Under the pieces are notes generated by a model, which worked only from the letters and a program-made list of their open reading frames with translations, searched no databases and was not told the origin of the DNA. This document shows positions 5,066 through 39,521 of a stretch of DNA of 39,521 nucleotides, piece after piece (positions within the stretch are counted from its first letter, which is position 1; every line of letters begins with the position of its first letter). The stretch is from Haloarcula marismortui ATCC 43049. GTDB lineage: Archaea; Halobacteriota; Halobacteria; Halobacteriales; Haloarculaceae. The stretch lies in contig NC_006391.1 in the NCBI RefSeq assembly GCF_000011085.1, forward strand, positions 1 through 39,521, written 5' to 3'. A program made the position numbers and the translations under genes.

Positions 5066-5268
5066 TTGTGCCCGAGGGCTCGTGGGTTGCCGAAGCCCGC
5101 GGCCACCCGCGAAAGCTCGGCGCGTTGGTCGTCGGGCTGGCGCTCGTGGGGATCGGCGGCCCGATGCTGTGGTGGCTGGGGCTCGCGTTGTCGAGTCTTG
5201 CTGTCGGGCAGTTGGTAGCCTACTGGGGCGATGAAACGGACCCGGCCGTCGACCGGAGGGCAATCTGA
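5062..5268 (+). CDS. Small two-helix membrane protein
   Basis: A 68-aa protein with a GTG start overlapping the TGA of the wHTH gene (GTGA). Two hydrophobic helices are visible, roughly residues 19-36 and 38-54, separated by a short turn, with a charged C-terminus. It is the last gene in the tightly overlapping operon that begins at 29080. Function is not recognised. Confidence 0.65.
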   Translation: MIVPEGSWVAEARGHPRKLGALVVGLALVGIGGPMLWWLGLALSSLAVGQLVAYWGDETDPAVDRRAI

Positions 5269-5274
5269 AATAGT

Positions 5275-23000: not shown

Positions 23001-23194
23001 TACCTGTAACGGACATAAAGTAACTGTCAACCCGCTTCAACCCCACAAGGGTCCGTCTGAAACCCGCCAACCAACTATGAGCCGACACGACCTCACAGCT
23101 TCAACCCCACAAGGGTCCGTCTGAAACCTTGAGCACGACCTTGTCGATGTTCCACCGGTTCCACGCTTCAACCCCACAAGGGTCCGTCTGAAAC
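20071..23194 (-). CRISPR. CRISPR array: 48 repeats of 30 bp and 47 spacers, two repeat types
   Basis: Repeats begin GCTTCAACCCCAC and end CCGTCTGAAAC as read on the plus strand; spacers are 34-38 bp. The reverse complement (starting GTTTCAGACGG, ending GTTGAAGC) matches the type I-B repeat of Haloarcula/Haloferax, whose crRNA 5' handle ends in TTGAAGC, so transcription is inferred to be leftward from a leader right of 23194. Repeats 1-2 and 16-48 have ACAAGG...GAAAC. Repeat 3 (20205) has ACAAGG...GTAAC. Repeats 4-15 have ACGAGG...GTAAC, and repeats 5 and 13 also have GGGCCC for GGGTCC. Spacers 8 and 9 (20563-20599 and 20630-20666) are identical. No cas gene is present, so processing must rely on Cas proteins encoded elsewhere. 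Confidence 0.98.
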
Positions 23195-23788: not shown

Positions 23789-24961
23789 ATGCAGACCAGC
23801 ATCACTGAGTTCACTGCTGGCACTGACGAACTCGACATTACCCGGACAATCCGGTGTAAGCTCGCCACCAGCAACGCGAAAAACGAGACTGTCCGTCGTG
23901 GGATCGAGGCCTACCAGCAGGTCGCCAGCCATATGGCTGATGTGCTGCCGTCCTACCCCGCATACGAATGGAACCTCCAGAATACGCAGATGTATCATCA
24001 GGCCAAGCGAGCGCTCCCAGATGATGATGTGCGGTATAAAACCACGCTCGCACAGATGGCCAAGAACGATGTCGTCGAGTCGTTCACTAGCTGGCGTGAA
24101 CGTGGTGAAGACGGGAAGTTGCCTCGTGGTCAATACGGGGACGCTGACTACCTTAGCCTCCGACATGACGACTGCGAGATTCACGAGAACGACAAGGGTT
24201 GGGGCGTCAAAACGAGCTTTATCAGCTACAATCCAGTGTGGTTCCACATCCATGCTGGAGGCTATCAGCGGCAGTTTCTCGAACGCGTGACTAATGAGGA
24301 TAACCCAGCTAGCGCCGGTTCTGCTGAACTCCATCTCCATGATGATGGGACGCTGTACCTCCACCAGACCATCACGTGGCCGGTTGAGGTCTACCAGCCT
24401 GCCGAGGTCAGCACTGCTGTGGGCGTTGACCTCAACGATGATCCGCTGGTCTGTGCGGCTGTCGTCGACGACGAGGATGTCGTGGCTGTCGAACTGGAAT
24501 CCGGGGCGGAGTATCGTCACCATCGCGAGCGGGTGAAGCGCCGCCGGAGTGAAGCGATGGAGCGTAACGACCTCAAGGCGATCAAAGATGCCCGATTACA
24601 GTACAACCGATATACCGATCACATCACCAACGTCGCCAGCAAACGCGTGGTCGACCTTGCTGAAGAGCACGCCCCAGCTGTGATTCATCTAGAAGATCTC
24701 ACCCACTACCGTGAGACTGCAGAGGATCCAATCCACGACTGGCCCTTCGCAGAGATCCAAGAAAAGATTGCGTACAAGGCTCACGAGGCTGGCATCCCGG
24801 TCCAAGCAATCGACCCGCGCAACACGAGTGTAACTTGCCGGAAGTGTGGAGAGACCAATCCAGCGATGCGGGACGGCGATGTCTTCGAGTGCTGGGAGTG
24901 CGGGTACGAGGTCCATGCGGACGTGAATGCTGCGATCAACATCGCGACGACCAATCAATGA
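23789..24961 (+). CDS. tnpB: TnpB, RNA-guided nuclease of an IS200/IS605-family (IS1341-type) element
   Basis: A 390-aa protein with an intact RuvC-like nuclease: Asp214 in AVGVDLNDD, Glu302 in VIHLEDLTH, Asp378 in EVHADVNAAINIA. The zinc finger between the last two is CRKCGETNP...CWECG. This is the TnpB family, transposon nucleases guided by an RNA made from the element's 3' end. No tnpA (Tyr transposase) is beside it, so it is an IS1341-type orphan needing TnpA in trans. The length is normal. The hairpin just after its stop (24968-24987) is the likely right-end/omegaRNA structure. It lies immediately beyond the CRISPR leader side of the array. Confidence 0.9.
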   Translation: MQTSITEFTAGTDELDITRTIRCKLATSNAKNETVRRGIEAYQQVASHMADVLPSYPAYEWNLQNTQMYHQAKRALPDDDVRYKTTLAQMAKNDVVESFTSWRERGEDGKLPRGQYGDADYLSLRHDDCEIHENDKGWGVKTSFISYNPVWFHIHAGGYQRQFLERVTNEDNPASAGSAELHLHDDGTLYLHQTITWPVEVYQPAEVSTAVGVDLNDDPLVCAAVVDDEDVVAVELESGAEYRHHRERVKRRRSEAMERNDLKAIKDARLQYNRYTDHITNVASKRVVDLAEEHAPAVIHLEDLTHYRETAEDPIHDWPFAEIQEKIAYKAHEAGIPVQAIDPRNTSVTCRKCGETNPAMRDGDVFECWECGYEVHADVNAAINIATTNQ

Positions 24962-25008: not shown

Positions 25009-26358
25009 CTATGCTGATTCCCCGGAAGCAACATTCCCGTCACGGTGGACGGTACTCGGGTCTGTGCGCTGTTCTTTGGGACTTTCGAGAGAGCGTGGTG
25101 ACTCCGACCATTCGTGGTCGTCCCACTCGAACCGCACGGGCCGTGCCATCGGCCTGACTTCTTTGCTCGTATGCCGCTTCAGGAACGTTTCTGACGCCGT
25201 AAGGTCGGCGTGCCCCTCGAATCCACACGGACAGGTGAGCGTGTCCTGATGCCGTGTCGTCCGGTCTGTCGAACCACACTGTGGGCACTCTTGACTGGTC
25301 CACGCTTCCGACCGGACTTCGACCGAGATACCGTATTCGTCTGCGGTACACGCCAGTCGCTCGGTGAACTGCTTGAACGCCCAGAAGTTGTGCGTCTTGG
25401 CGTTCGTCTCGACCGACCAGTGTGTGTCCAGCACGTCGGCCAAGCCTCCGATATACACCGTGTCCACACCGTCCTCGTAGAGTCGTTCGAGCAGGTCACG
25501 ACACAGTGCCTCTTGTGCGTGGTCGCGGCGACGGGTTCGCTTTCGGTACAACCGCCGAATACGCTCGCTACTGTATCGGCCTTCCCGTAGCTTGGACTGT
25601 AACCGGGCGATTTCTCGTGTCGTCTCACGGAATCGCTGAAACAACTCGCGGCCTTCGTACAGGTATTGTTTGCCGGTCGTCGTGGTACAGGCGACGAGAT
25701 TGTTCGCACCAATGTCCAGAGCGGCCTTGTGGTCGGCCAGTGGAGTCCCCCGTGCATCGTCAGAAACAGTGACGGGTTGCGAAGCTCGGAAGGTGCTGTC
25801 AGTCTCGTCGTACCACAGTTCCAACCGGCCTTGGTCCTCGTAGTCAGGCCAGTTCGGGTCGCCAACGATTTCGAGCCGAAGACGGCTTTTCGGGCTGTTG
25901 TGCCTGTCTCGGAGTTCTTTGCCGACGATAATCTCAAGTCGAGAGCGGTCGCCCCATTCAACGGTGTAGGCGTCCTTTCGGACGACGCCTTTGAGAACAC
26001 GTCCGTCATCTTCGTTGCCACGGAAGCCCGGCGGTTCCGGGTGTTCCGTGACCGACGTGTTCGATTTGTCGTGATACGCCTTCTTGTTCTCGAAGAACGA
26101 CCGCCACGCTTCGGTGTTTGCTCGCCGGACAGTTTGAGCGGTAGACGCGCCGAGAACGCCTTTGTATTTGCCTTCAAGAGCGCCGGTATCGGCGTCCCAC
26201 ACGTCTTCGCCCTCAAAGCCGTTCTCGTCGTTGTAGCGCATGAGGCGCTGGTAGTTAATCTCGTTCCAGAGAGCGGCAGAAGCGTCCAACAGATCCCGTA
26301 GCACCTGCTCACCATCGTCGGTGAGCGGTCGCACGGCGAACGTGTTGGTGCGCTTCAT
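25009..26358 (-). CDS. tnpB: Second TnpB, haloarchaeal subgroup, RuvC-II glutamate absent
   Basis: A 449-aa protein read leftward from ATG 26358 ([11 protein letters not shown]); seven more in-frame residues upstream are unlikely. RuvC-I is ALDIGANN (Asp215) and RuvC-III is [14 protein letters not shown] (Asp385), with a zinc finger CPQCG...CPCG before it. At RuvC-II, where TnpB normally has Glu in an h-h-E-D-L strand, this protein reads [11 protein letters not shown] (about residues 301-311), with no acid at the expected position. The rest of this segment ([16 protein letters not shown]) is typical of a haloarchaeal TnpB subgroup. It may be nuclease-inactive or use a rearranged site. It is divergent from a small gene at 26386 and convergent with the first tnpB. 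Confidence 0.85.
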
Positions 26359-27131: not shown

Positions 27132-28001
27132 ATGACAAATAGACTCACAGTAGCAAGCGCGAAAGGAGGGGTAGGCAAGACGACTGTTGCTATCAACCTC
27201 GCCGGCGCGTTGAATCATCGCGACCACGACGTTCTCCTCGTCGACATGGACCCGCAGGGAGTCGCAACCGAGGGTTTGGGACATGCGGAGGCCTACGACG
27301 CAGAACCACCGACGCTGGCCGACACACTTCTCGCCGGCGACCGCAGACACTTGGCCCAGGATCTTCTTTTGGATCATCCCGAGATGGACCTCCTGCCCAG
27401 CAACGTCGATCTCCTCAACACAGAACGCGACCTCACGCTCTCCGACGTTGCTGCGGACCTCCAGGCCCGCGGCGTCGACGCCACATCGGTAATCCAGAGC
27501 GGGACCCTCCTGGAGGACTCCTGTCTCGACGAGGACCTGCCCCACGCTCGCTACCAGCTCGACAAAGTACTCCGCGAGGTTGAGGACGATTATGACTACG
27601 TCATCGTCGACTCGCCGCCATATTACGGCGAAATCCTGGACAACTGCCTCTACGCAGCTCCGAACGTCGTCATCCCAGCACTTGCCGAAGGCACGTCTCA
27701 GCGAGCTGTCGAACTGCTCTATGATGAACTCGACGCGATGGAACGTGAGACAGACGTCCGTTGTATCCCTGCGCTCGCAGTCGCCAATCGCATCCGGGCG
27801 TCGACGAACGAGGCTAAGGAAATGCTGGAGTGGTTCGACGCGGCATTCGCGGAGACTCCGCTTATCGAGATCCGCGAACGCGTGGCCCTGCAGTACTCCT
27901 TCAATGCCGGCCGAACGCTATTCGAGTACGAGCCAGGCAACGATATGACCGACCGGTTTACTGACGCCGCGAAATACGTGGAGGACTTCTTCAATGAGTG
28001 A
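27132..28001 (+). CDS. parA: ParA-type partition ATPase
   Basis: A 289-aa protein with the deviant Walker A KGGVGKTT (residues 11-18), the A' motif LLVDMDPQG at about 37-45 and Walker B VIVDSPPYY at about 157-165. These define the ParA/Soj family of Walker-type ATPases that move plasmids over the nucleoid. There is no N-terminal DNA-binding domain, so this is the short (type Ib-like) form. It overlaps the next gene by 8 bases, forming a two-gene partition operon. A specific motif lies in its leader and again in the partner gene. Confidence 0.9.
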   Translation: MTNRLTVASAKGGVGKTTVAINLAGALNHRDHDVLLVDMDPQGVATEGLGHAEAYDAEPPTLADTLLAGDRRHLAQDLLLDHPEMDLLPSNVDLLNTERDLTLSDVAADLQARGVDATSVIQSGTLLEDSCLDEDLPHARYQLDKVLREVEDDYDYVIVDSPPYYGEILDNCLYAAPNVVIPALAEGTSQRAVELLYDELDAMERETDVRCIPALAVANRIRASTNEAKEMLEWFDAAFAETPLIEIRERVALQYSFNAGRTLFEYEPGNDMTDRFTDAAKYVEDFFNE

Positions 28002-29037: not shown

Positions 29038-29086
29038 CGCGCATGTCGGTCCAAACGGACCGCTCAGGTACCCCTACCCATGCGCG
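29038..29086 (+). promoter_or_regulatory. Nested hairpin that includes the start codon of the operon's first gene
   Basis: CGCGCATG (29038-29045) pairs with CATGCGCG (29079-29086), which contains the ATG at 29080. Inside, CGGTCC (29047-29052) pairs with GGACCG (29057-29062) around AAAC. TATA-like CATTAAAAAATTC (about 28996-29008) and GATTAAAAG (about 29016) lie upstream. If transcription starts near 29028, the mRNA could fold and hide the start codon. Confidence 0.45.
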
Positions 29087-29259
29087 AACACGACCCCGGT
29101 GACCGACAATCGCCGGACAACGCGGCCAAGCCCGCGTATCAACCGTATCGAACCGAATGGCATGATATCGACGAGCAGCGGCGCGCGCGAGACTGGCATG
29201 AGTCGGCTGGAGCGAGCCGCGATCTCCCCACCGCCGAACTGGTCGGAGGTGGCGTGTGA
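29080..29259 (+). CDS. Small hydrophilic protein, first gene of the envelope operon
   Basis: A 59-aa protein from ATG 29080. It is rich in Arg, Asp and Trp (AYQPYRTEWHDIDEQRRARD) with no membrane segment. Its TGA overlaps the GTG of the next gene (GTGA), which supports coding. The start codon is within a potential 8-bp stem. No family is recognised. Confidence 0.55.
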   Translation: MREHDPGDRQSPDNAAKPAYQPYRTEWHDIDEQRRARDWHESAGASRDLPTAELVGGGV

Positions 29260-29882
29260 TCGACATCGAAGTCGACAGCGTCCGACGGGCAGACCTCTCA
29301 GTGCTGGGCTGGCTCGGCATCGGACTCACGGTCTCCGGGCTGGCCTATGCTGGGTGGACGATCATCACCTCACTGACCGTCGGCGGCGGTGTCGTTGACG
29401 GACTAGTTGTCGGCGCTGGTGCCGCTCTTATTGGCGGGCTCGTTGCCTACGGCAACGCAATCCCGGAGATGGATGCCATCTGTGACCATTGTGGCGACCG
29501 CATTATCGCACACTCCAGTCGCGACGGTCACGACGAGTCCATCGAAGTCCTCTGCAGTTCGGACCCGCGACGGGGGCGATTAGGGCCGCTGTCGGTGGTA
29601 CTGCAGCGCCGGACGGACACCTACCACTACTGTTCGGGCGAGTGCGCGGCGGCCGACGCCGAACGACGGCGGCTGCAGAGCCCGTCCCAGACTGACACGG
29701 AGTCGACTGCAGCCGGCCGTCTCGCAGCGACCGACGGCGGCACCCACCGGCTCGACCAGCTCATCGACGCCGTCGACCAGGAAGGCAGCGGTGCCGTCCG
29801 TGACGATGCCCTTCTCGACGCGCTCGAATCGGCACGCAACCAGGGCGTTCCCCAGCCCGAAACCGGGGATTCAGACCTATGA
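29256..29882 (+). CDS. Membrane protein with cytoplasmic zinc-binding domain
   Basis: A 208-aa protein with a GTG start. Two hydrophobic helices lie at about residues 15-38 and 44-66. A cysteine cluster follows: AICDHCGDRII near 74-77, VLCSSDP and YHYCSGECAAAD near 122-128, resembling a treble-clef/TRASH-type zinc site. The last 60 residues are acidic and probably disordered. The layout suggests a membrane anchor with an internal zinc module that could bind nucleic acid or a partner ATPase. It overlaps both neighbours by 4 bases. The family is not recognised. Confidence 0.65.
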   Translation: MIDIEVDSVRRADLSVLGWLGIGLTVSGLAYAGWTIITSLTVGGGVVDGLVVGAGAALIGGLVAYGNAIPEMDAICDHCGDRIIAHSSRDGHDESIEVLCSSDPRRGRLGPLSVVLQRRTDTYHYCSGECAAADAERRRLQSPSQTDTESTAAGRLAATDGGTHRLDQLIDAVDQEGSGAVRDDALLDALESARNQGVPQPETGDSDL

Positions 29883-30457
29883 TAGGACCATTTTCGACTG
29901 ACAAGAACAGTTCACGACCGATTGCACTGCTGCTGGCTGGCCTTATTTGTGCCAGCATGGCCGTCGCTGGCGTCGGTGGCGCGGCCGCACAGACGACCGC
30001 CACGCCAACACCGACCTCGACCTCGGACACGCTGGCGGACAAGACCGTCGCCGTCAACAACCAGACCCAGCAGGTCTACCTCGAAGTGACGAACACGAGT
30101 GCCCAGAGCGTCGATTACACGGTCTATGGCGTGTCTGACGGCATCACAACGCAGGTTGACTCCGGCATGGTGTCGGCGGCCAGCGGCGAGACCACGGAGA
30201 AGACCTTCGCCGTTGACTCGTCGGAGTACGACGACTATCGCATTGTCGTCGAAGAGGACGGGACCGACAGCGACAACGAAACTGCTGAGTCTATTGAGAT
30301 CGGCGAGATCGTCCAGCAGTCTTCGGGCGGGGCCATCTTCGGCGGCGGCGGTGACGGCATATTCACGCCGATGAACATCCTCATCGCGGCGCTGCTGGGG
30401 GCGGCGGCGTTCCTGCTGGGGCTGTTCGACCCGATCAAGCGCCGGATAGCGGGGTGA
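29879..30457 (+). CDS. Secreted domain with signal peptide and C-terminal membrane anchor
   Basis: A 192-aa protein. The N-terminus has a hydrophobic core at about residues 15-31 and a likely cleavage site near AAAQ (about 38). A Thr/Pro-rich linker and a beta-sandwich-like domain follow (QQVYLEVTNTSAQSVDYTVY, TEKTFAVDSSEYDDYRIVV). After a Gly-rich stretch, a C-terminal helix (ILIAALLGAAAFLLGLF) and basic end (DPIKRRIAG) anchor it. This is a type I membrane protein facing outward, the topology of haloviral spikes and pilin-like surface proteins. Similar topology appears in the 1,327-aa protein. Identity unknown. Confidence 0.7.
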   Translation: MIGPFSTDKNSSRPIALLLAGLICASMAVAGVGGAAAQTTATPTPTSTSDTLADKTVAVNNQTQQVYLEVTNTSAQSVDYTVYGVSDGITTQVDSGMVSAASGETTEKTFAVDSSEYDDYRIVVEEDGTDSDNETAESIEIGEIVQQSSGGAIFGGGGDGIFTPMNILIAALLGAAAFLLGLFDPIKRRIAG

Positions 30458-30463
30458 GACCGA

Positions 30464-30949
30464 ATGTCCTCATCCGCTGATCTGGACCTCGGCGACGGCA
30501 GCGGGAAAGAGTCGTTGAGTGGCATCACGAACTTCCTGCAGGCTGATGGCGACGCGGGACGAGTCTTGTCGGCGTCGATTATCGGGTTGATCGTGTCGCC
30601 AGTCGTTGCGGTCATCGACGTGATCAACGCGGTGGCGAACTTCTTTTCCCAGCCGTTCAACAGCGCTGGGGACGCGATTGGGTCGCTGTTGCGAGGGCTC
30701 TTCGAGGCACCTGGGAACCTCCTGATTGCGGGAGCAGATGTCTCGGAAACCGTGTTACGCTCAATCTTTAGCGATACGCTGGCTGGACTCTTGGCGTTCC
30801 CAGTGACTGCCGGGCTGGTGATGATCGTGCTGTACATGGTCGTGCTGTATCTCCGCGAGGATGAGACTGGCGACGTGCTGCCGGGCCTGCCTATCGACGT
30901 GCCAACGGATATCTTCGGCGTCGAAGAGGAGGACACGATAGACGAATGA
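30464..30949 (+). CDS. Membrane protein, paralog A of a tandem pair
   Basis: A 161-aa protein with hydrophobic segments at about residues 35-60 (SASIIGLIVSPVVAVIDVI) and 105-130 (LAGLLAFPVTAGLVMIVLYM), and an amphipathic middle containing ANFFSQPFNSAGDAIGSLL. The acidic tail ends EEEDTIDE. The next gene ends QEDTVDE, and both are followed by an identical junction (GACGAATGACGGCTCGCCAG), so the two are probably diverged duplicates. It overlaps the next gene by 4 bases. Confidence 0.65.
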   Translation: MSSSADLDLGDGSGKESLSGITNFLQADGDAGRVLSASIIGLIVSPVVAVIDVINAVANFFSQPFNSAGDAIGSLLRGLFEAPGNLLIAGADVSETVLRSIFSDTLAGLLAFPVTAGLVMIVLYMVVLYLREDETGDVLPGLPIDVPTDIFGVEEEDTIDE

Positions 30950-31266
30950 CGGCTCGCCAGTATGAGGCATTAGGCTATCTGGTGGTGCTGGTTGGGCTGC
31001 CCGCCGTGGTCGTCGCAACTGTCGATGCCAGTGCAGCTGTGTCGGCGCTGCTAACCCGACCATTCGCCGCCAGTGCTGACGCGGTGGCTACCTTCGTTTC
31101 ACAGCCATTTGCGAATCCTGCGCTGGCTGGGGGCATCACTGCCATCTTGGGTCTTGCGTCTTTGCTGTTGAGGACCGCCATGCGCAAACGTGATCCTGTG
31201 GACCCATACCAGGAGTTTCCCCTGCCTCCCAACGGTCTCGACCAGGAGGATACGGTCGACGAATGA
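30946..31266 (+). CDS. Membrane protein, paralog B of a tandem pair
   Basis: A 106-aa protein starting MTARQYEAL. Hydrophobic helices lie at about residues 8-32 and 62-80, with TFVSQPFANPALAG between, matching FFSQPFNSAG of the preceding protein. The C-terminus ends EDTVDE. The sequence spanning its stop repeats the sequence spanning its own start, evidence of a tandem duplication. Function unknown; part of the envelope operon. Confidence 0.65.
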   Translation: MTARQYEALGYLVVLVGLPAVVVATVDASAAVSALLTRPFAASADAVATFVSQPFANPALAGGITAILGLASLLLRTAMRKRDPVDPYQEFPLPPNGLDQEDTVDE

Positions 31267-31310
31267 CGGCTCGCCAGCCCCACAACTCGGAGGTCACTGC
31301 CAATGGCTGA
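31263..31310 (+). CDS. 15-residue ORF, possible duplication relic
   Basis: ATG 31263 opens MTARQ, identical to the first five residues of the previous gene, then diverges and stops at 31308-31310. It overlaps the previous stop by 4 bases and the next ATG (31303) by 8, as real genes here do. It may be a coupling peptide or the stub left by unequal recombination. Confidence 0.3.
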   Translation: MTARQPHNSEVTANG

Positions 31311-31737
31311 TGACTCGGGGCTGACGGGCTTTATTAGGAACTCAGAGTCGTTTGCAGGCTACCAGATTGTCGACACGGCGAACCCGGTCAACTGGTCCGG
31401 CGCTGGCGCGTCGATATTCCTGTCGGCGGTCGCGACGGTGTACATTGGCTTTCGGAAGTTCATCGACGAACTGGTTGGCATCCCGGAGCGGCTCATCGAG
31501 GGCGCAACGTCGTTCGTCGGGGACGTGACGACCGGCGAGACGCCGACGGGATCGGGCGTGCTGGGGGAGTTGTTTGTCCCGATTCTGCAGTGGTATCGAC
31601 AGGACCTCTGGGCTGGCAGCGTCGACCAGTTCGGACTCTGGGGCTATCTGGTTGCGCTGGGGTTCACGCTGGTGACGCTGTTCGTCGTCGTGCGTGGCCT
31701 TCGTGAAGGTGCCCAACGGCTCGCAGGAGGTGACTGA
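31303..31737 (+). CDS. Two-helix membrane protein
   Basis: A 144-aa protein with hydrophobic helices at about residues 34-52 (GASIFLSAVATVYIGF) and 113-132 (LWGYLVALGFTLVTLFVVV), separated by an amphipathic loop (ELVGIPERLIEGATSFVGDV) that resembles the central loop of the preceding paralogs. No family is recognised; structural membrane component by context. Confidence 0.65.
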   Translation: MADDSGLTGFIRNSESFAGYQIVDTANPVNWSGAGASIFLSAVATVYIGFRKFIDELVGIPERLIEGATSFVGDVTTGETPTGSGVLGELFVPILQWYRQDLWAGSVDQFGLWGYLVALGFTLVTLFVVVRGLREGAQRLAGGD

Positions 31738-31739
31738 TA

Positions 31740-32198
31740 GTGTCGACATCGGGCGGTGGCGGCGGTGGTGGTTTCGTTCTCCCGCCCGCCCTGAGGGCAT
31801 TCGCGGCCTCGCCGACTGGATTCATCCTCGGGCTCATCTTGACGCCACTGCTGAACGGCGTCGAGGGCGTCGTTGAGAAAGTCCTCTGGGCCATCAACTA
31901 CGTGTTTTTCGGCGATTCGCGGTCGTCAACACTCGGGGACCTCGGGCTCGTGGATGTGCCGGTCGTCATCGCAAACACGCTCATCGACGCTGGGTCGGCA
32001 ATTGGCGACCCGGTGCTCACGGTCATCGGTTCTGGTGTCCAGTTGCTCATCGACTTTTTCAACTGGACGGGACCGGCGGGACTGCTGGGCGCGGCGATTG
32101 TGTTCGCGATTGTTGTGGTCGCGTACTCGTCGGCAATACGGACAGCCATCGAGATTGCGCTGGACTTCATTCCCGGGGGAGGTGCCTTCATCAACTGA
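31740..32198 (+). CDS. Gly-rich-headed membrane protein
   Basis: A 152-aa protein with a GTG start two bases after the previous stop. A Gly-rich N-terminus (seven consecutive Gly) precedes hydrophobic segments at about residues 25-42, 75-105 and 113-135. The loop GVEGVVEKVLWAINYVFF is amphipathic. The end (IPGGGAFIN) abuts the next ATG with one shared base. Function unknown; member of the membrane-protein run. Confidence 0.65.
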   Translation: MSTSGGGGGGGFVLPPALRAFAASPTGFILGLILTPLLNGVEGVVEKVLWAINYVFFGDSRSSTLGDLGLVDVPVVIANTLIDAGSAIGDPVLTVIGSGVQLLIDFFNWTGPAGLLGAAIVFAIVVVAYSSAIRTAIEIALDFIPGGGAFIN

Positions 32199-32482
32199 TG
32201 TCGCTCAAAGAGTTCCTTACCCACCCAGCGAGTGCGGCAACGGCAACGGCGACGACGCTGTTCGGGGCGTTCCAGTTCGACGTGCTGGCGGTGCTGCTGC
32301 AGTGGGGCTGGGCGAACCTCGGACAGCTGTTCTACGGGGCGACGTTGCTGGTCAGCTCCGCGCCGGTCCTGCCGATCACCAAGACGGCGGCGTCGAAGAT
32401 CGTCGCTGGGCTGGCGGCGTTGCTGTTGCTGAAACTCCTGCTGAAAGCTCGTGAACAGATTGACAACCGAACGGACGGCTAA
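32198..32482 (+). CDS. Small membrane protein
   Basis: A 94-aa protein whose ATG shares a base with the previous TGA. Ala/Thr-rich N-terminus, then hydrophobic stretches at about residues 28-55 and 68-84 and a charged tail (KAREQIDNRTDG). No family is recognised. Confidence 0.65.
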   Translation: MSLKEFLTHPASAATATATTLFGAFQFDVLAVLLQWGWANLGQLFYGATLLVSSAPVLPITKTAASKIVAGLAALLLLKLLLKAREQIDNRTDG

Positions 32483-32486
32483 ACTC

Positions 32487-32567
32487 ATGATTCAGAACGA
32501 ACATATCAAGCGGACGTATCGAACAGGAACAGCGGACAGCCCGGAGGTGGGCCGATGCCAGAGGTGA
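32487..32567 (+). CDS. 26-residue ORF in the operon
   Basis: ATG 32487 lies 4 bases after the previous stop and opens 26 codons (MIQNEHIKRTYRTG, Arg-rich end) that overlap the next gene by 13 bases. It may be a translated coupling peptide that carries ribosomes to the next start (32555). Weak evidence. Confidence 0.3.
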   Translation: MIQNEHIKRTYRTGTADSPEVGRCQR

Positions 32568-32914
32568 CGACGGCGACGGCGACCGGCTGGGCCATCATGG
32601 TCATGGTGTTCTACGTGATCGGCGAGTACACGTCGGTGCTGGCAAAGACGGCCTACCCGATTAAGTGGTTCAAAGGCCGCCCGGCCCGGCTGACGACGGG
32701 ACTGGTGGGCGGCTTTTTCGGTGGCGTGTATGCCGGCGGATTCCTCTGGAGCGCGGCGGCGTCGTTCATCGGCGCTGGCGCGCTGGCCGGCGGTGGCACG
32801 GTGGTCCTCGGGCTGACGGGCAAAGAGACGCTGGTCGTGTTCTTGGCGGCGCTGGTCGTGGGGCTGGCGCTGTACACGGGCGCGGCGGCAGAGGAGGCGG
32901 TGGATGCAGATTAA
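32555..32914 (+). CDS. Three-helix membrane protein
   Basis: A 119-aa protein with hydrophobic helices at about residues 10-28, 46-80 (Gly-rich, GLVGGFFGGVYAGGFLWSA) and 92-112. A basic loop (KWFKGRPARL) sits between the first two. It overlaps the next gene by 11 bases. Function unknown. Confidence 0.65.
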   Translation: MPEVTTATATGWAIMVMVFYVIGEYTSVLAKTAYPIKWFKGRPARLTTGLVGGFFGGVYAGGFLWSAAASFIGAGALAGGGTVVLGLTGKETLVVFLAALVVGLALYTGAAAEEAVDAD

Positions 32915-33038
32915 CATCTCCGGCTGGGGCGCGGTCCTGCTGGCGGTGGTCGGCATTGTGGCCGTTCTGATGTTCACCGCGCCGGAGGCAACGACGGACT
33001 ACGTCAACGGCGTAGCAAGCGCTCTTTCGGGGGGCTAA
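32904..33038 (+). CDS. 44-residue single-pass membrane microprotein
   Basis: ATG 32904 to TAA 33036-33038. It reads MQINISGWGAVLLAVVGIVA, then a short polar end. One membrane helix at about residues 8-28. It overlaps the previous gene by 11 bases and ends 2 bases before the next start, so it is well embedded in the operon. Tiny membrane proteins like this occur in haloviral particles and secretion systems. Confidence 0.6.
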   Translation: MQINISGWGAVLLAVVGIVAVLMFTAPEATTDYVNGVASALSGG

Positions 33039-33040
33039 CC

Positions 33041-34864
33041 GTGCCCGGACACGCACTTTCGGGAGGTGATAGGGCCGCCGTCGCCGCGGTTAGTGTTGCG
33101 GTCGTCCTCGTCGCTGTCACCGTGGCGGGCGCGTTCGCGATGCCCGCATCGGCAGCGGTGGCCGACGGACACTACCAGACTAACGCGACCAACGGCACGA
33201 GTGCCACCGACGACAGCCAGTCGAGCGACTGGACCGCGCCGGGGCCGTTCGGTATCGACGAGCTGCGGACGGGCGGCGACCAGATATCGAGCGGCGGTTC
33301 GCAAGGCCCGCCGGAGTCGACGCGGATGCTCCCGACCGGCGGGATCGTGCTGAAGTACCTGCCGTTGAACCCGGCCCAGTCGAGCTATCAGCCGCTCGGT
33401 CGGAATCAGGCACTCAAAACAGACTACCTGCTGGCGTACACGTCCGCGTTCGGCGAGAGTGTCGGTGACTACGAGTTTGTCGTCGTGTTCTGGCAGGAGC
33501 AGACGACACGAGTCAACGGGACACAGCGGGCCTACGCGGCGAATCAGAGCGTCCAGCGGATTAGCTTCGAGGCAGAGAACGGCTACTCGGCGTCGAAACT
33601 GAAACTGCAGTCCCATTACGACCAGCAGTGGCAGGCAACGGCGTGGCTGGAACAGGACGGCAGCCGCGTCGAGGGCGCACGCTGGCGATTCGGCCACCAG
33701 ACCAACCCGCTGACGGCGTCACCGGCATACCCGACGAACTCGAAAGGCGACCTCTGGCGTTGGGGGGCGCTGAACCTGATTATCCCGGCGATTTGTGGCA
33801 TCATGTTCTCCGGGGCGTCGGCCAAACACATCCTCTCGCGAACGATTGTCGGGACGCTGAAAGGCGTCACGTACTGGGCCGGTGTCGTCGCGGTCGTGGT
33901 CGGCATCGCGGCGATAGTTGGGACGTGGCAAACGTCGATTATCCTCGCGAACGCGCCGATTGCGGTCGGCATTCTCATCGGCCTGCTGGCGCTGCCGGTG
34001 ATGCTGTCGATTCGGGACAGCGACCTCTCGAAAGCCGGCTTTTTCCGGCGGCAACTCCGGCAGGGCGCTATCTCGCCCAGCGGGGATGAGACGGTCGGCA
34101 CGCGGCGGGTGGCGAACAAAATCAAGTCCGTGTACCGACACGGCGAACAGTTGTATGCCCCAGTGTCCGGCCTACGGCCGATGCTGGCCCGCTACTGGGC
34201 GGACCCGGCGAAGATACCGACCGAGGACTGGAAGTCCTACGATAGTGGCGACGGCGACCTCGACCAGCTCTTCGAGGTCGACCCAGAGTCCGACAAGGTG
34301 CTACGGCACAAACCGGCGCGACTCAAGTTCGCGCCGTCGCTGACGAAAGCGGTTGCCGACGAGGACCTCGCGGACCCGCCCGAAGCCGACGGCATTGCGG
34401 CACTGCCGGCGGCTATCTCGGCGGCGGTGTCGAACTGGTTCGCCCGTCGCAACTGGCGGTTCATCGGCATCGCACTCGGTGGTGGCGCGCTGGTCTACCT
34501 CGGGACAGTCGCGGCGCTGGGCTCGTCGATTATCGGGCTGGGGCTGGCGACGTTGCCGGCGTTGATCGACGGCCACGAAGCTCGCGATGGCTCGCTCGAA
34601 GTCGACTGGGGGCCGTCCCACTGGAACGACGTGCAGGCACAGGTCCAGACCGAGCGCCACGAGTACGAAGAGCGCAAGACCTTCGACCAAGTTCTCGAAG
34701 CGGTCACCGAACTGGAATGGTCTGACCACGAGCAAGGCCAGCAAATCGTCGACCGCGTTCGCACGGAGATTCAGAAAGCGCTCGACGACGAACACGGCGG
34801 GAACAACCCGTCAACGAACCTCTCGCCGTCGTCGCCACAACAGGGGGTTGATGCGGATGACTGA
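33041..34864 (+). CDS. Large multi-domain membrane protein
   Basis: A 607-aa protein with a GTG start. A signal-like hydrophobic segment (about residues 13-35) precedes an extracellular domain of about 200 residues (Thr/Gln-rich, beta-like: DYEFVVVFWQEQTTRV). Two or three membrane helices follow at about 243-320 (LWRWGALNLIIPAICGIMF, VTYWAGVVAVVVGIAAIV, PIAVGILIGLLALPVML). A cytoplasmic region (about 325-465) leads to another helical pair (about 470-508) and a charged cytoplasmic tail with a coiled-coil-like stretch (ERHEYEERKTFDQVLEAV). It links outside and inside and lies next to the MCM and ATPase genes, so it may be a channel or scaffold. The family is not recognised. Confidence 0.7.
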   Translation: MPGHALSGGDRAAVAAVSVAVVLVAVTVAGAFAMPASAAVADGHYQTNATNGTSATDDSQSSDWTAPGPFGIDELRTGGDQISSGGSQGPPESTRMLPTGGIVLKYLPLNPAQSSYQPLGRNQALKTDYLLAYTSAFGESVGDYEFVVVFWQEQTTRVNGTQRAYAANQSVQRISFEAENGYSASKLKLQSHYDQQWQATAWLEQDGSRVEGARWRFGHQTNPLTASPAYPTNSKGDLWRWGALNLIIPAICGIMFSGASAKHILSRTIVGTLKGVTYWAGVVAVVVGIAAIVGTWQTSIILANAPIAVGILIGLLALPVMLSIRDSDLSKAGFFRRQLRQGAISPSGDETVGTRRVANKIKSVYRHGEQLYAPVSGLRPMLARYWADPAKIPTEDWKSYDSGDGDLDQLFEVDPESDKVLRHKPARLKFAPSLTKAVADEDLADPPEADGIAALPAAISAAVSNWFARRNWRFIGIALGGGALVYLGTVAALGSSIIGLGLATLPALIDGHEARDGSLEVDWGPSHWNDVQAQVQTERHEYEERKTFDQVLEAVTELEWSDHEQGQQIVDRVRTEIQKALDDEHGGNNPSTNLSPSSPQQGVDADD

Positions 34865-35657
34865 CCCGATGGCGGCCGACGGACATCACGCGCTCAAATG
34901 GCTCGCGAGCGACGACGGGTCGGTCGACCGCTCGTTCGCAGCTGGGCTCGACTCGCTTCGCGCCCAGCAGCGCCACCTGCAACAGTCCCTTCGCGATGGC
35001 TTCCAGACCCGCACTGAGGTCTTGGAGTGGTGCCACGCGGTCGACGTGGTGTCGGGCGGGCAAACCCCGGAAACGTGGCACGAGGACCTCGTGAAAGACC
35101 GCTGGGAAGTCGCTTGCCTCATGGCAGAAACGGACGACCGGATCGCAATCTGTGACCAGGCACCCCGCGACGACGAGACTGCCGATGCGTTCCGGCGGCG
35201 GCTCATTCGGAAGGTGCTGCTGCCGGCGTTTCAGGACGCCACTGAGATGCTGCGTGAGCGGGTCGGAGAGTTCTCCGATGAGGAAGGCGTCAAAGACGCC
35301 GAACGGATTCAGTACGTCGCTGGGCGGCCACGATTGCATCAGCGCGCGGTCGAACAGCACGGGATGCTGCGGCGGACGCTACGGGACCCGCCCGGCGTCG
35401 AATCGGAGGTCATGGCGTGGGCAGAGGATATCATCCACATGACCGAGGGCCACGTCCGCAGCGGGTTCATCGAGGACGTGCTGGACCGGCACGGCAACTG
35501 GTGGCACTCGCTGACTCGCGGGCCGTCAGTCCGGCTTGAGTGGCTGCTGGCCGGCGAGATATTCCCGGCGATGAATGCCACGCTCTCAGAGTTAGTGACC
35601 AACAGCAACGAACTGGCCGACGTTGCTGGCCGCGCAAAGGAGGTGCCGCCGGGATAA
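34857..35657 (+). CDS. Soluble helical hypothetical protein
   Basis: A 266-aa protein from ATG 34857 (MTDPMAADG), overlapping the previous gene by 8 bases; ATG 34851 is an alternative. It is almost entirely helical and charged (ALKWLASDDGSVDRSFAAGL, RRRLIRKVLLPAFQDATEML). There are no nucleotide-binding or membrane motifs. It lies between the large membrane protein and the MCM and is probably a cytoplasmic partner. The family is not recognised. Confidence 0.65.
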   Translation: MTDPMAADGHHALKWLASDDGSVDRSFAAGLDSLRAQQRHLQQSLRDGFQTRTEVLEWCHAVDVVSGGQTPETWHEDLVKDRWEVACLMAETDDRIAICDQAPRDDETADAFRRRLIRKVLLPAFQDATEMLRERVGEFSDEEGVKDAERIQYVAGRPRLHQRAVEQHGMLRRTLRDPPGVESEVMAWAEDIIHMTEGHVRSGFIEDVLDRHGNWWHSLTRGPSVRLEWLLAGEIFPAMNATLSELVTNSNELADVAGRAKEVPPG

Positions 35658-35986
35658 TGGATATCGAAGCCATCCGGGCGGCCCGGGCTCGCGAACAGGA
35701 CGCGGCGTCACTCGTGGCACTGGCCGAACCGACGATCTTCGAGCGCGTCCAGAACGCCGTCGACGACGGAGAGATCGACACCGAGGACGCGGCGCAACTG
35801 ACAACCGAACTGGCCGACGAGCGGGCCGGGAAGCTCCTGAAACTGGCGTCGTTCCGGGCCGCGGGCATGGCGGTCAACTGGGACGGCGTCACCGAACAGG
35901 AACGCGCGCTCGTCGAGGACCTCGTTGCCCGACTCGAAGAGTGGCGCGACTCGGTGACGCCGGCCACGGAGGACAGCGATGAGTGA
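35657..35986 (+). CDS. Small helical acidic protein
   Basis: A 109-aa protein from ATG 35657 (TAATG overlap). It begins MDIEAIRAARAREQDAASL and is helical throughout with heptad-like Leu/Ala spacing, suggesting a coiled coil. It overlaps the MCM gene by 8 bases. It could be an MCM accessory subunit; that is only inference from position. Confidence 0.6.
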   Translation: MDIEAIRAARAREQDAASLVALAEPTIFERVQNAVDDGEIDTEDAAQLTTELADERAGKLLKLASFRAAGMAVNWDGVTEQERALVEDLVARLEEWRDSVTPATEDSDE

Positions 35987-37928
35987 CGAGTTGTCCGACC
36001 GGGTCGCTCAGTATCTCCGCTGGCAGGTCAGCGACAAGGTGGCGCTGCTGGCCCAGCGCTATCCCGACGACACGTCGCTGACGCTGGACTGGACGGACCT
36101 CGCTCGGTGGGACCCAACGCTGGCCGAAGATATCCTCGATGCGCCCGATTCGATGCTTGAATACGTGGAACGGGGGATTCGGGACACGCCGCTGCCGGTC
36201 GACACGTCGCTGGGGCAGGCGACACCGCGCTTCGAGAACCTGCCCGAGTCACACACGACCGCGCCGGGCGAGTTCTCACCGTCGGATCGGCGCGGGCAAC
36301 TGCTGGCGCTGGAAGGGCAGGTCGCGAAGCGAACGCAGGTGCAACCACGGCTTGTCGAAGCGGCCTTCGAGTGCCAGCGCTGTGGCACGCTCACCCGGAT
36401 ACCATTCGAGCCCGGGCAGTTCATCGAGCCCTTCGAGTGCGTCGGCTGCGAGACGAAAGGGCCGTTCCGCATCAACCCGGACCAGTCCCGCTACGAGGAC
36501 TATCAGAAGCTCCTGTTAGAGAATCCCAGCAGCGCGGCGCTGGGTGGCGATACCTCGGATATCATCGCGCACCTGCAGGGCGACCTCGCGGGACACGGCG
36601 CTATCGCGAACTGTCAGGACGTGGTGCTCGTTGGTGAACTGCAGTTCCGCGGTGGCGGGCCGATTCCCGAGCCACAGGTCGTCGTGAACTCCGTGCAAGC
36701 GGCCGGCCAAACCTATCAAGACGCGGAGTTCACGGCTGACCAGCGGGACCTCTTCGAGCGCCTTCGCGAGCGGCCGGAGTCGTTCGACGTGGATATCGAG
36801 GACCCGTCGACGGCCGATGTGCTGATGGCGGCCGCAGCGCCGAAGTTCGTGTCGGGCTCGCACCCACGGGACCGGCAGGTCGTTCGCGGCCTGGTCCTAC
36901 AGCTGGTCAGCGCGTCGACGTTCGACGGACCGGACGGCTCGCACTATCGGGGCGACGTTCACGTCCTGCTGCCGGGTGACCCGGGGACAGGGAAGTCCGT
37001 ACTGGCGAAGTGGGCCGCGGCGGTCGCGCCCCGGTCGGCGTTCGCGAGCGGCGAGCGCGTGTCGGGGCCGGGGCTGACCGCGGCGGCGGTGAAAGACGAC
37101 TTTTCCGACGGCGGATTCAGCATTGAGCCCGGCGTGCTGGTCCGCGCCCACGAGGGCATCGCGGTCGTCGACGAACTGGACAAGGCCGGCGATGATGCCA
37201 TCGAGAAGATGCACTCGGCGCTGGCCGACCAGATTTTGCCGCTGTCGCTGGGCGGGCAGTCGATGACGCTGCCAGCCGAGTGCGGGCTGCTGGGCGTGTG
37301 CAACCCGCTCGGCGGTCACTTCGCTGGTGACGAGTCGCTGGTCGACGCGCTGGGCATCAACAGCCCGCTGCTGTCGCGGTTTGACCTTATCATGCAGATG
37401 CGGTCGAAACAGGACCGCGAACACGTCCGAGAACTGGCCGAGTCGATGATACGGACGTGGTCGGCATCGCTGAAAGACGCGACTGGGCAGGCACTCGACA
37501 CGGCTGACGCCGATACTATCGACCCAGTGCTGTCGATGGACCAGTACCGCGCGGTCCTGCTGCGGGCGCGACAGTTGCATCCCACACCCGCGAACGACAG
37601 GGTCATCGAGGCGCTGGCGGCGTGGTTTGAAGAGCAAAAGATGGCGCTGCCCGAGCGCTATCGCGATGCGCTCGCGGACGCGGATGGGCAGTACCACGGG
37701 CCGCCCGTGCCCGTGACCGCCCGGAAACTCGGGGCCGCACGCCGTGTCGCACAGGCGGCCGCTCGGGCGAACCTGCGTGAAGAGATTACGATGGCGGATG
37801 TCGAGGTGGCGAAGGAACTGGTCAGCCGGTCGCTGGCCGACCTCGATATCCCGATTGTCCACAACGCCGGACTCGGCGGTGGTGACGTAAACCGCCGTGA
37901 ACCGGCTGATTTGTCTGGAGTGAGCTAA
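35979..37928 (+). CDS. mcm: MCM-family replicative helicase
   Basis: A 649-aa protein. The N-terminal domain has an OB-fold region with a zinc site (FECQRCG near 130 and FECVGCE near 153). The AAA+ core has Walker A GDPGTGKS (333-340), Walker B VVDELDK near 397-403, sensor 1 in GVCNPLGG near 440 and the arginine finger LLSRFDL near 465. A C-terminal winged-helix-like segment follows. All catalytic motifs are intact. It is somewhat shorter and diverged from chromosomal MCM, like copies in haloarchaeal integrated elements. It unwinds DNA at replication and could work with the plasmid Orc1/Cdc6. Its presence inside an envelope operon is unusual. Confidence 0.85.
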   Translation: MSDELSDRVAQYLRWQVSDKVALLAQRYPDDTSLTLDWTDLARWDPTLAEDILDAPDSMLEYVERGIRDTPLPVDTSLGQATPRFENLPESHTTAPGEFSPSDRRGQLLALEGQVAKRTQVQPRLVEAAFECQRCGTLTRIPFEPGQFIEPFECVGCETKGPFRINPDQSRYEDYQKLLLENPSSAALGGDTSDIIAHLQGDLAGHGAIANCQDVVLVGELQFRGGGPIPEPQVVVNSVQAAGQTYQDAEFTADQRDLFERLRERPESFDVDIEDPSTADVLMAAAAPKFVSGSHPRDRQVVRGLVLQLVSASTFDGPDGSHYRGDVHVLLPGDPGTGKSVLAKWAAAVAPRSAFASGERVSGPGLTAAAVKDDFSDGGFSIEPGVLVRAHEGIAVVDELDKAGDDAIEKMHSALADQILPLSLGGQSMTLPAECGLLGVCNPLGGHFAGDESLVDALGINSPLLSRFDLIMQMRSKQDREHVRELAESMIRTWSASLKDATGQALDTADADTIDPVLSMDQYRAVLLRARQLHPTPANDRVIEALAAWFEEQKMALPERYRDALADADGQYHGPPVPVTARKLGAARRVAQAAARANLREEITMADVEVAKELVSRSLADLDIPIVHNAGLGGGDVNRREPADLSGVS

Positions 37929-37930
37929 CG

Positions 37931-39478
37931 ATGTCACAGAGAAAACCAAAGGCAGAACAGGACGGATTCACCGAACAGACACGACAGGGCGCACAAGTCG
38001 TCCACGGATGCGACCCGCCCGGTGACTGGGATGACGACGCCGAGATGATTCGGACGCGGTTCGATATCCCAGCGTTTGATCCAGAAGCGTTCTATCCACG
38101 GGAGGGGGCGGCGCTGTCGGGTGTGTACCCGGATTTCCTCGTGCATATCGAAAGCGCATCGGACGGCCCGTCGACGGTGAACTCCCCGGGCGCATCACTG
38201 ACGATGGTCGAAGCGCCGAAGGGCTCGGGCAAGTCCACAGCTGCCGACCAGTTTGCCACATACCAGATGGAACACAACGACGAGCGCGTCGTCAGGAACG
38301 GCCGGCAGAAAAGCTCGGACTGGCGGCGGATGGCTGACTGGACGACGCTGTGGCTCCCCAGCGGCGTCGACGTTGACGGTCGGTGGATGGAAGCCGTCGA
38401 CCGCGACGACCCCGATCCCGACGAACTCTGCCGGGATGTGCGATATTACTCGGATGTCCTCGAACTTGTCGAGCGGCTGCAGAACCACCCGAAAGGAACG
38501 TACAACGTCGTGTTCCCGGACCCGTACTTCCGCAAGTGCGAGGACGCGCTGTCGACGGCGGACACAACGGTCGAACACCCGACGTTCGTCCCCAAGAACG
38601 AGCCGAACCCGACGCCGGCATCGCACTGGTGGTTCGGCTTCCTCGCGGCACGCACGTTCGACGGCCTGCGTGTTGATAGCGATGGCGACCGCAACTGGAT
38701 GACCGCCCACATCGACGAGTTTGGGATGCTGGCACCGGAGTCAGCGCCGGGTGGCGAGTCCGGCCACTGGACGCATCAGTGTATCAAAATCATGGCCGAT
38801 ATCGCGAAGGAAATGCGTTCGGCCGGCCTGTCGCTGGTCGGCTACGGCCATCATGAAGAAGATGTTCACAACCACTGGCTCAAAGAGTTCGATTTCTGGG
38901 TCGAACTCTCGAACCACGACCGCGGGAACCGGACGACCAAGGCTGAAGCACCGAAGCCGTTCCGGGACCTCGAACAAGACCAAGACCTGCTGTCGAAGCG
39001 ACCGAAGGGCTTCGGACTGTGCTACACCGGCAGCCGGTTCTCGGAGTTTCAGTTCTCCGACCTGGGCTACCCACACGACACGCCGGAGTTCCAGCTGCGG
39101 CTCGGTATCCCGTCGTCGGTCGACGTGTCGACCAGCGACGACGGCGGCATGATCGTCGAGGACCTCCAGGTGGCGACCGACGACGATGACCAGCCGACAA
39201 TTCTCAACGAGTACCGCGCGGCCGGTGGCGCTGTGCACGAGCTGCGTGTCCTCGCGCCCGGCGACGGCATCATCGATATCTCTGGTGACGAGCCTGAGGT
39301 GCTCGAGCAACTTTCGAGCCCGTATGCCGATGGCACGTTCCCGGAGAACCCGATCACAACGACCCAGAATCACTATGATATCATGTTCAACCCCGACAGT
39401 AGCACGGAGATCGTGGCGGCGCGCATCCCGAGACGCACTGGGCCCGGCGCGACAACGGAGGTCATGGCCGATGACTGA
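37931..39478 (+). CDS. P-loop ATPase of the HerA/FtsK-like type (transfer or packaging motor candidate)
   Basis: A 515-aa protein beginning 2 bases after mcm. Walker A is EAPKGSGKST near residues 95-104; Walker B is TAHIDEFGML near 257-266. After Walker B, a segment KEMRSAGLSLVGYGHHEEDV ends in the position of the sensor/Q motif of DNA-pumping ATPases. The N-terminal 90 residues are hydrophilic and there is no membrane helix, so it would need a membrane partner such as the 607-aa protein. HerA/FtsK-type motors translocate DNA or pack it. Other P-loop roles cannot be excluded. It overlaps the gene at 39471 by 8 bases. Confidence 0.7.
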   Translation: MSQRKPKAEQDGFTEQTRQGAQVVHGCDPPGDWDDDAEMIRTRFDIPAFDPEAFYPREGAALSGVYPDFLVHIESASDGPSTVNSPGASLTMVEAPKGSGKSTAADQFATYQMEHNDERVVRNGRQKSSDWRRMADWTTLWLPSGVDVDGRWMEAVDRDDPDPDELCRDVRYYSDVLELVERLQNHPKGTYNVVFPDPYFRKCEDALSTADTTVEHPTFVPKNEPNPTPASHWWFGFLAARTFDGLRVDSDGDRNWMTAHIDEFGMLAPESAPGGESGHWTHQCIKIMADIAKEMRSAGLSLVGYGHHEEDVHNHWLKEFDFWVELSNHDRGNRTTKAEAPKPFRDLEQDQDLLSKRPKGFGLCYTGSRFSEFQFSDLGYPHDTPEFQLRLGIPSSVDVSTSDDGGMIVEDLQVATDDDDQPTILNEYRAAGGAVHELRVLAPGDGIIDISGDEPEVLEQLSSPYADGTFPENPITTTQNHYDIMFNPDSSTEIVAARIPRRTGPGATTEVMADD

Positions 39479-39521
39479 CCCAGCAACGCCGCTGGTCATG
39501 ACCGATATCGAACGGCCTTTT
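39471..39521 (+). CDS. N-terminal part of the 70-aa protein that continues at base 1
   Basis: ATG 39471 overlaps the ATPase stop by 8 bases and is open for 17 codons (MTDPATPLVMTDIERPF) to the last base of the window. The codon phase is exact, so base 1 begins the next codon, and frame 1 there stays open to 162. This supports circularity. Confidence 0.6.
   Translation, partial: MTDPATPLVMTDIERPF

Follow-up and report, generated by a model that had tools for sequence, protein, structure and literature searches.

We describe a cassette of genes for small membrane proteins, a HerA-like ATPase and a large spike that marks a family of haloarchaeal mobile elements, apparently not described before, and probably encodes a module for envelope-spanning DNA transfer. 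Established here are the synteny of the cassette, the selection on its genes, the integration of its relatives at tRNA sites and the absence of detectable homology to representatives of known systems. The preliminary description had suspected an undescribed transfer or particle system; the cassette is apparently undescribed, as judged from the open-access papers searched, conserved (25 syntenic loci) and mobile (tRNA-site elements).

Organization of the operon

The window, i.e. the whole stretch of 39,521 nucleotides that was analysed, is almost certainly the replicon pNG300 of Haloarcula marismortui, here in the laboratory strain ATCC 43049. Positions 22090–30359 of the relative pNYT2 correspond to window positions 31244–39521, and positions 30362–31443 to window positions 3–1084. 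Since this match runs over the contig junction with no break, the window is a closed circle. Twenty co-directional genes (+ strand) occupy 29080–39478 and, past the junction, 143–5808. Overlaps of 1–8 bases join eleven adjacent pairs, and the others are separated by 2–6 bases, apart from four wider intergenic gaps of 36, 72, 126 and 185 bases. The genes are as follows.

29080–29259, + strand: p59, small protein, first operon gene; homologues in the same place in loci L003, L035, L059 and L061
29256–29882, + strand: p208, membrane protein with a cysteine-rich segment; kept in the window-type clade and L069–L071
29879–30457, + strand: sig192, secreted domain with signal and C-terminal helix; phrog_13810, E 1.4e-13; dN/dS 0.16
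30464–30949, + strand: m161, two-helix membrane protein; 51 profile matches, often two tandem copies per locus
30946–31266, + strand: m106, small, fast-evolving membrane protein; phmmer match in pNYT2 only; dN/dS 0.36–0.58
31303–31737, + strand: m144, m161-related membrane protein (profile matches, locus comparison)
31740–32198, + strand: m152, two-helix membrane protein (predicted helices, profile matches, locus comparison)
32198–32482, + strand: m94, membrane protein (predicted helices); dN/dS 0.13
32555–32914, + strand: m119, two-helix membrane protein (predicted helices); dN/dS 0.16
33041–34864, + strand: MP607, core protein with signal helix, Ig-like ectodomain (residues ~68–225), four more predicted membrane helices and a cytoplasmic tail
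34857–35657, + strand: P266, core cytoplasmic protein; after MP607 in 25 of 25 loci; dN/dS 0.11
35657–35986, + strand: GINS-like protein of 109 aa, likely MCM partner; window-type clade only
35979–37928, + strand: MCM helicase, accessory replication gene (Pfam MCM, E 1.5e-47)
37931–39478, + strand: HerA-like P-loop ATPase, core motor; invariant G-K-T and D-E motifs
143–4135, + strand: spike of 1,330 aa with signal helix, beta-domain ectodomain and four predicted C-terminal membrane helices
4135–4437, + strand: p100; found here and in Haloarcula sebkhae only
4437–4742, + strand: m101, membrane protein 3' of the spike (profile matches, locus comparison)
4742–5065, + strand: winged-helix-like regulator; on pNG100 and pNG200 it also adjoins the orphan ATPase
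5062–5268, + strand: m68, membrane protein (profile matches, locus comparison)
5275–5808, + strand: m177, membrane protein, last operon gene; kept in L036 and L059

The roughly 16-kb operon of about twenty co-directional genes in the preliminary description is real, but its end was placed at 5268, short of the last gene, and the 1- to 13-base overlaps were slightly generous. The count of about ten small membrane proteins agrees with the predicted helices, and the MCM helicase is confirmed by its Pfam match. The 607-aa membrane-spanning protein has five predicted helices, and the spike is present with 1,330 rather than 1,327 residues. An open reading frame read as 356 aa probably starts at 34857, giving a product of 266 aa.

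Compared with close relatives, most operon genes have a dN/dS of ~0.06–0.3, small p59 and m106 being the exceptions; together with the 25 syntenic loci, this shows that the operon is not a product of chance. Purifying selection is strong on MP607, P266 and the ATPase, and the spike evolves faster than these three. In the core, several small membrane proteins come first, and MP607, P266, the ATPase and the spike follow in that order; m161 is the founder of a small paralogous family present throughout the related loci. MCM is missing from 11 of the 25 loci and occupies three different positions where present, which rules it out as a core part. The truncated protein immediately 5' of the pNG300 MCM, pNG3052, was previously named as a C-terminally truncated GINS homologue (PMC3972481).

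Distribution and integration of the relatives

The cassette is syntenic in at least 25 haloarchaeal loci. Among 377 good haloarchaeal genomes, MP607 is found in 69 (24 of 86 genera), and it is confined to the order in a phylum-wide sample. Host families are no more clustered in the ATPase tree than with shuffled labels; the distribution is patchy and host-independent.

The related cassettes lie on plasmids or on integrated elements that carry a tyrosine integrase (PF00589) and sit at the 3' ends of tRNA genes. Exact direct repeats at the tRNA 3' ends measure 29 bp in genome G172, 17 bp in G146 and 15 bp in G125 and G004. The G172 element spans 44 kb, and the same flanks lie ~107 bp apart in the sister species G103 (97–98% identity). 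With an integrase, a repeat at the tRNA 3' end and a near-empty site in a relative, these are tRNA-integrating elements. The window, a free circle, contains no integrase of this type. It also encodes ParA, Orc1/Cdc6, a DUF5817 protein and a CRISPR array; no full-length match of the CRISPR spacers to related loci was found. One relative, the Halosegnis element, encodes a family-B DNA polymerase.

A nucleotide search of phages gave no match, and an NCBIfam search gave nothing relevant. Homologues of the ATPase, MP607 and sig192 were not found in IMG/VR by a scan that needs a conserved peptide and, for MP607, reaches close relatives only; an ATPase homologue was likewise not found among INPHARED phages. 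Two cassette proteins, sig192 and the ATPase, match PHROG families that have no assigned function (phrog_13810 and phrog_22963, the latter with E 1.5e-9). These matches hint at viral or proviral relatives, and the origin of the family members was sought in INPHARED and not found there.

The ATPase

The ATPase is colinear with haloarchaeal HerA/DUF87 over 215 columns (profile probability 61%, a medium score). Of the HerA/FtsK motif set, Walker A, the D-E of Walker B and the arginine are present, and the glutamine of the last motif is replaced by H in window-type proteins. The enzyme is probably of the DNA-translocase type. It has no VirB4 or T4CP family match in Pfam. A weak PADLOC match to mad8 was set down to general P-loop similarity.

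The p12_10p protein of the Pyrococcus plasmid pP12-1 is homologous to the ATPase (phmmer 1.3e-8; profile probability 99% over ~300 residues, with a profile built without p12_10p itself) and is the only informative outside relative. The ATPase gene also occurs without the rest of the cassette on pNG100, pNG200 and pNG400, which share the cell with pNG300, and on pHsi55. An integrase lies near it on pNG200, pNG400 and pHsi55, and the regulator on pNG100 and pNG200.

MP607 and the spike

The structure model of MP607 has a pLDDT of 70.8, and its ectodomain matches generic beta-sandwiches in PDB/BFVD (Z up to 7.4). The spike contains a hypervariable block (~1088–1859) that is unalignable between flanks of 80–90% identity. 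A model of a relative's spike (pLDDT 62) matched generic beta domains in fold searches of PDB/BFVD (Z up to 9.5) and, with weak scores, looks similar to Ig-like pilin/adhesin domains arranged in chains. Among the structure matches of MP607 and the spike, none to a known fusogen or pilus protein was conspicuous, which carries little weight at these model confidences, and the spike profile matched no PDB sequence, fusexin included. In locus L071, a protein that combines a WD40/PQQ propeller, carboxypeptidase-regulatory domains and membrane helices takes the place of the spike; these are domain types also reported in pR1SE ORF6 (PMC10818511) and in pT26-2 t26-5p (PMC6972569).

Comparison with known systems

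Our yardsticks were single representatives: pHTUR05 (an apHPV, picked by gene order), HRPV-1, HGPV-1, His2 and pMEFER01. As the preliminary description stated, no capsid, portal, relaxase or VirB4 is found in the cassette, and no processing enzyme (relaxase or packaging nuclease) was recognised. The large cassette proteins match no Pfam family of a conjugative T4SS relaxase, VirB4 or coupling protein. Within this genome, the TrwB family occurs on contig C5 only.

pR1SE and the apHPVs, haloarchaeal plasmids carried in plasmid vesicles, share with the cassette a large spike with a variable part, many small membrane proteins, a HerA/VirB4-like ATPase, an MCM that is often nearby, and a plasmid or integrated state in haloarchaea only (PMC10818511). 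They differ in having an ORF7 S8 protease beside ORF6 and two clusters, the cassette being a single cluster without an S8 protease; we found no S8 serine protease match among cassette proteins longer than ~125 aa. Comparing cassette profiles (up to 29 members) with pHTUR05 core proteins by hhalign gave at best a probability of ~29%, for 21 residues within a membrane helix. The proposed resemblance to pR1SE stands for the general logic; kinship with pR1SE-like plasmids is not supported, pHTUR05 giving no credible profile match.

The pT26-2 family of Thermococcales and Methanococcales, for which DNA transfer was proposed, resembles the cassette in uniting an ATPase with small membrane proteins, a membrane protein of 650 aa and a surface protein of the PEGA/carboxypeptidase-regulatory type in one block, and in integrating into chromosomes; its core comprises seven genes (t26-5p, 6p, 7p, 11p, 13p, 14p and 15p) (PMC6972569). 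None of the four profiles compared (ATPase, MP607, P266 and spike) resembled a protein of pMEFER01, one representative of that family. pP12-1 (12 kb) differs in that, besides the ATPase, no cassette gene is recognised.

Pleolipoviridae share a co-directional cluster with a spike, small membrane proteins and an ATPase. Comparison of the cassette profiles with VP3, the VP4 spike, ORF6, ORF7 and the ATPase of three genera (represented by HRPV-1, HGPV-1 and His2) revealed no credible match, the cassette ATPase resembling HGPV-1 ORF7 in the P-loop only (67% and 53%); the kinship to pleolipoviruses considered earlier is not upheld. With regard to the V-shaped fold of the pleolipovirus spike, fold searches with the relative's spike model (pLDDT 62) gave generic beta domains, a result of little weight at this confidence. 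Ced resembles the cassette in having small proteins of two helices, a polytopic protein and a HerA-like ATPase and in lacking a relaxase, but is chromosomal in Crenarchaeota and serves import, and no sequence link was found (PMC11868833). Small cassette proteins have the two-helix topology of CedA1-type pilins and lack a sequence match to solved structures. Integrated haloarchaeal elements carrying Fsx1 also combine a surface protein with a HerA-type ATPase, but homologues of VirB4 and TraG/VirD4 and a fusexin have been reported on them (PMC9259645).

Proposed function and alternatives

On balance, we read the cassette as a module by which haloarchaeal plasmids and integrative elements of one family transfer themselves. 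A membrane complex would be built from MP607 and the small two-helix proteins; P266 and the HerA-like ATPase would dock on its cytoplasmic side, and the ATPase would drive the double-stranded DNA of the element through it. Recognition of recipient cells may fall to the spike, in whose ectodomain a block is swapped among relatives. The recipient would then copy the DNA, using MCM/GINS on some elements and other replication genes elsewhere, and an integrase, if present, would insert it at a tRNA 3' end. The reading draws on the synteny, the patchy distribution, the tRNA-site integration, the purifying selection with a faster spike, the colinearity of the ATPase with HerA and the domain types in the spike slot of L071. 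Against it stand the medium HerA score and the H in the last motif, the generic beta-sandwich folds of the structure models, the lack of a recognised processing enzyme and the lack of the relatives' integrase in the window. That DNA is what is transported, how the parts assemble in sequence and how release occurs are inferred. By analogy with pR1SE, release of DNA in membrane particles is slightly favoured over contact transfer; the preliminary description's leaning towards vesicles rather than conjugation stays a guess, as Ced too works with a HerA-like ATPase and proteins of two helices.

Haloarchaea also swap DNA by cell fusion, a process that requires no pilus. This speaks against a contact-dependent, conjugation-like transfer, which is possible though not probable and in which a pilus or channel of the CedA1/VirB2 type would be made of the two-helix proteins, with MP607 as a VirB6/CedA-like channel, the ATPase as the DNA pump and the spike as an adhesin. 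The inventory of Ced (two-helix CedA1/CedA2, multi-helix CedA, HerA/VirB4-type CedB and no relaxase; PMC11868833) is similar by topology, and the pilin-like domain chains of the relative's spike model fit an adhesin, but the m161 family and two other small proteins match no solved pilin by sequence and the ATPase gives no VirB4/T4CP family match. A separate family of pleomorphic viruses or proviruses, with the spike and membrane proteins as virion proteins, is distinctly unlikely: the pleolipovirus core also follows the logic of spike, small membrane proteins and ATPase (PMC10599561), and the Halosegnis polymerase and the two PHROG matches point the same way, but the three pleolipoviruses lack profile similarity, the IMG/VR scans, which need a conserved peptide and for MP607 reach close relatives only, and the INPHARED search for the ATPase were negative, and ParA, Orc1/Cdc6, the DUF5817 protein and the CRISPR array are plasmid cargo.

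The large adhesin-like spike and multi-protein membrane complex would also suit a host-kept, plasmid-borne surface machine for protein secretion, adhesion or contact-dependent competition, and secretion was raised as an alternative for the analogous pT26-2 core module (PMC6972569). We consider this very unlikely, given an ATPase probably of the DNA-translocase type, a cassette in which neither a toxin nor an effector was seen, and an ATPase gene that travels alone near an integrase (pNG200, pNG400 and pHsi55), which fits DNA mobility better than secretion.

Significance

DNA exchange among haloarchaea is large-scale, and few transfer machines are known. If the self-transfer reading is true, the cassette would be a major missing DNA vehicle, carried by mobile elements in 69 of the 377 sampled species. 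It is doubtful, if conceivable, that the family is an independent lineage of self-spreading archaeal plasmids, found in about a fifth of haloarchaeal genomes, with satellites of its own, pNG100, pNG200, pNG400 and pHsi55, that use the pNG300 machine as phage satellites use a helper. The cassette would also represent a third lineage of archaeal plasmids after the pR1SE and pT26-2 types, and since all three are built from one set of parts (spike, small membrane proteins and ATPase) with no detectable shared sequence, the cassette would offer a test of convergence versus a deep common origin.

Replicon and operon extent

The genome comprises nine contigs, of which the window is C3 (39,521 bases). 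In pNG300 as published, pNG3052 and pNG3053 are a GINS-like gene and MCM (PMC3972481); in agreement with this, a GINS-like gene directly precedes MCM in the window, which we take to be pNG300. The end and start of the window are contiguous in the Haloarcula taiwanensis plasmid pNYT2, and the operon thus truly spans the contig ends. It contains 20 genes (29080-39478, then 143-5808), which bears out the preliminary description of an operon of about 20 genes and 16 kb across those ends. An Orc1/Cdc6-like protein and ParA (9079-10134 and 27132-28001), the replication and partition genes of the plasmid, lie outside the cassette.

A CRISPR array (20071-23194) has 48 repeats, with repeat variants and one duplicated spacer; no cas gene was recognised among the window proteins scanned, and pNG400 has a similar array. 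A 4.1-kb segment (15904-20063), which encodes a 1,134-aa DUF5817 protein, shares 95-96% identity with both pNG400 and pHsi55. Since the adjoining sequence is not comparably identical, this suggests recent exchange of the segment among plasmids. Transposon genes follow the array:

23789-24961 and 25012-26358 (-), two TnpB-type transposon proteins (Cas12f-like TNB domain), back to back, one with OrfB_IS605

Cassette conservation

Iterated profile searches recovered the order small membrane proteins, MP607 (607-aa membrane protein), P266 (266-aa protein), HerA-like ATPase and spike in 25 loci from at least 12 genera, located on plasmids, contigs and chromosomes. In the window type, MCM lies between P266 and the ATPase; elsewhere it separates the ATPase from the spike or comes after the latter, and eleven loci lack it. 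No spike homologue was recognised in three loci (L069-L071). In L069 and L071, another large protein with membrane helices is encoded downstream of the ATPase, that of L071 having a WD40/PQQ propeller and carboxypeptidase-regulatory domains. The MP607 profile matches 69 of 377 good-quality genomes of the class (24 of 86 genera); across the phylum, 13 of 247 sampled genomes are positive, all from the same order. Full-text searches of open-access papers gave no description of the cassette, in line with the preliminary description, in which it looked undescribed.

Individual loci differ in their surroundings. In Halosimplex carlsbadense (L069, 14315-16586), the cassette is followed by a tandem array of four genes for type IV pilin-like proteins (DAVSPVIGVILMVAI motif), and a family-B DNA polymerase lies near the spike in a Halosegnis marinus element (L055, 4686-6812). 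In Haloarcula sebkhae, about 1 kb has been cleanly lost (L059 5976-5985 versus window 32856-33909), taking with it the end of m119, a small membrane protein, and the N-terminal part of MP607; this locus appears to be a decaying copy.

Selection and predicted structures

When the window is compared with close relatives, MCM has a dN/dS of about 0.06; MP607, P266 and the ATPase are each at about 0.1, and the spike lies at 0.2-0.3. Within the spike, a block at about 1088-1859 is unalignable between relatives at the DNA level while its flanks are 80-90% identical, a pattern expected of a putative recognition region. Conservation across the operon is lowest in m106, which encodes a small membrane protein and is bracketed by a 40-base direct repeat (30921-30960 and 31238-31277; 88% identity); it may have arisen by local duplication.

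In its model (pLDDT 70.8), MP607 combines an Ig-like ectodomain with four further predicted membrane helices and a helical tail; the spike of a relative was modelled (pLDDT 61.9) as a chain of beta-domains with C-terminal helices. Neither model indicates a function.

ATPase and orphan copies

No Walker A or B residue varies among 12 ATPase members. Pfam gave only generic P-loop matches; in a profile comparison with haloarchaeal HerA (DUF87), the alignment spanned the entire core with its arginine motif (61% probability). The sole informative outside homologue is p12_10p of Pyrococcus plasmid pP12-1. The ATPase is probably of the DNA-translocase type.

The same ATPase (87%) occurs on two H. marismortui ATCC 43049 plasmids, NZ_CP039133 (33,297 bases) and NZ_CP039132 (33,451 bases). 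Orphan copies with a nearby integrase are present on pNG200, pNG400 and pHsi55. On pNG100 (L049, 11069-12265), a spike C-terminus stub, the small membrane protein m68 and the winged-helix-like regulator adjoin an intact orphan ATPase; this set is a degraded cassette, and it shares its cell with the window. A further idea is that ATPase-only plasmids are satellites of pNG300.

Mobility of related elements

Upstream of the cassette, several relatives encode a tyrosine integrase of only 198 aa (PF00589). Repeats of a tRNA 3' end flank elements in four genomes (29 bp in G172, 17 bp in G146, 15 bp in G125 and G004); the shorter ones are each weaker evidence alone, and all begin at the tRNA 3' end. 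When the sequences on either side of the 44-kb G172 element were joined and compared with sister genome G103, two matching segments (97-98% identity) lay about 107 bp from each other, marking a nearly empty site. In the ATPase tree, host families are as mixed as under shuffled labels, which, given the few host labels, supports rather than proves transfer. Near 760400 of G166:C11, a 23-bp copy of the tRNA-Lys 3' end lies about 100 bases after the tRNA and towards the cassette, apparently an attachment site that is small or nested.

Comparison with known systems

The preliminary description likened the logic of the set to vesicle spread of plasmids (as for pR1SE) or to a pleomorphic virus more than to conjugation, and assigned it to neither. 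Kinship with pR1SE-like plasmids or pleolipoviruses was not supported: cassette profiles gave no credible match beyond P-loops in pHTUR05 (classed as pR1SE-like by gene order: large ORF6, S8 protease, later cluster), HRPV-1, HGPV-1 or His2, nor in pMEFER01, a pT26-2 relative, these targets being single sequences that leave room for very deep homology. In IMG/VR and INPHARED, the only cassette gene tested that had a match was MCM, a common gene of tailed viruses of haloarchaea.

The combination of a membrane complex, a probable DNA-translocase ATPase and a variable spike on tRNA-integrating elements is best explained as a putative DNA-transfer module. By analogy, such a module may act through particle release, as in pR1SE, or through contact transfer, as in the DNA-exchange system Ced.
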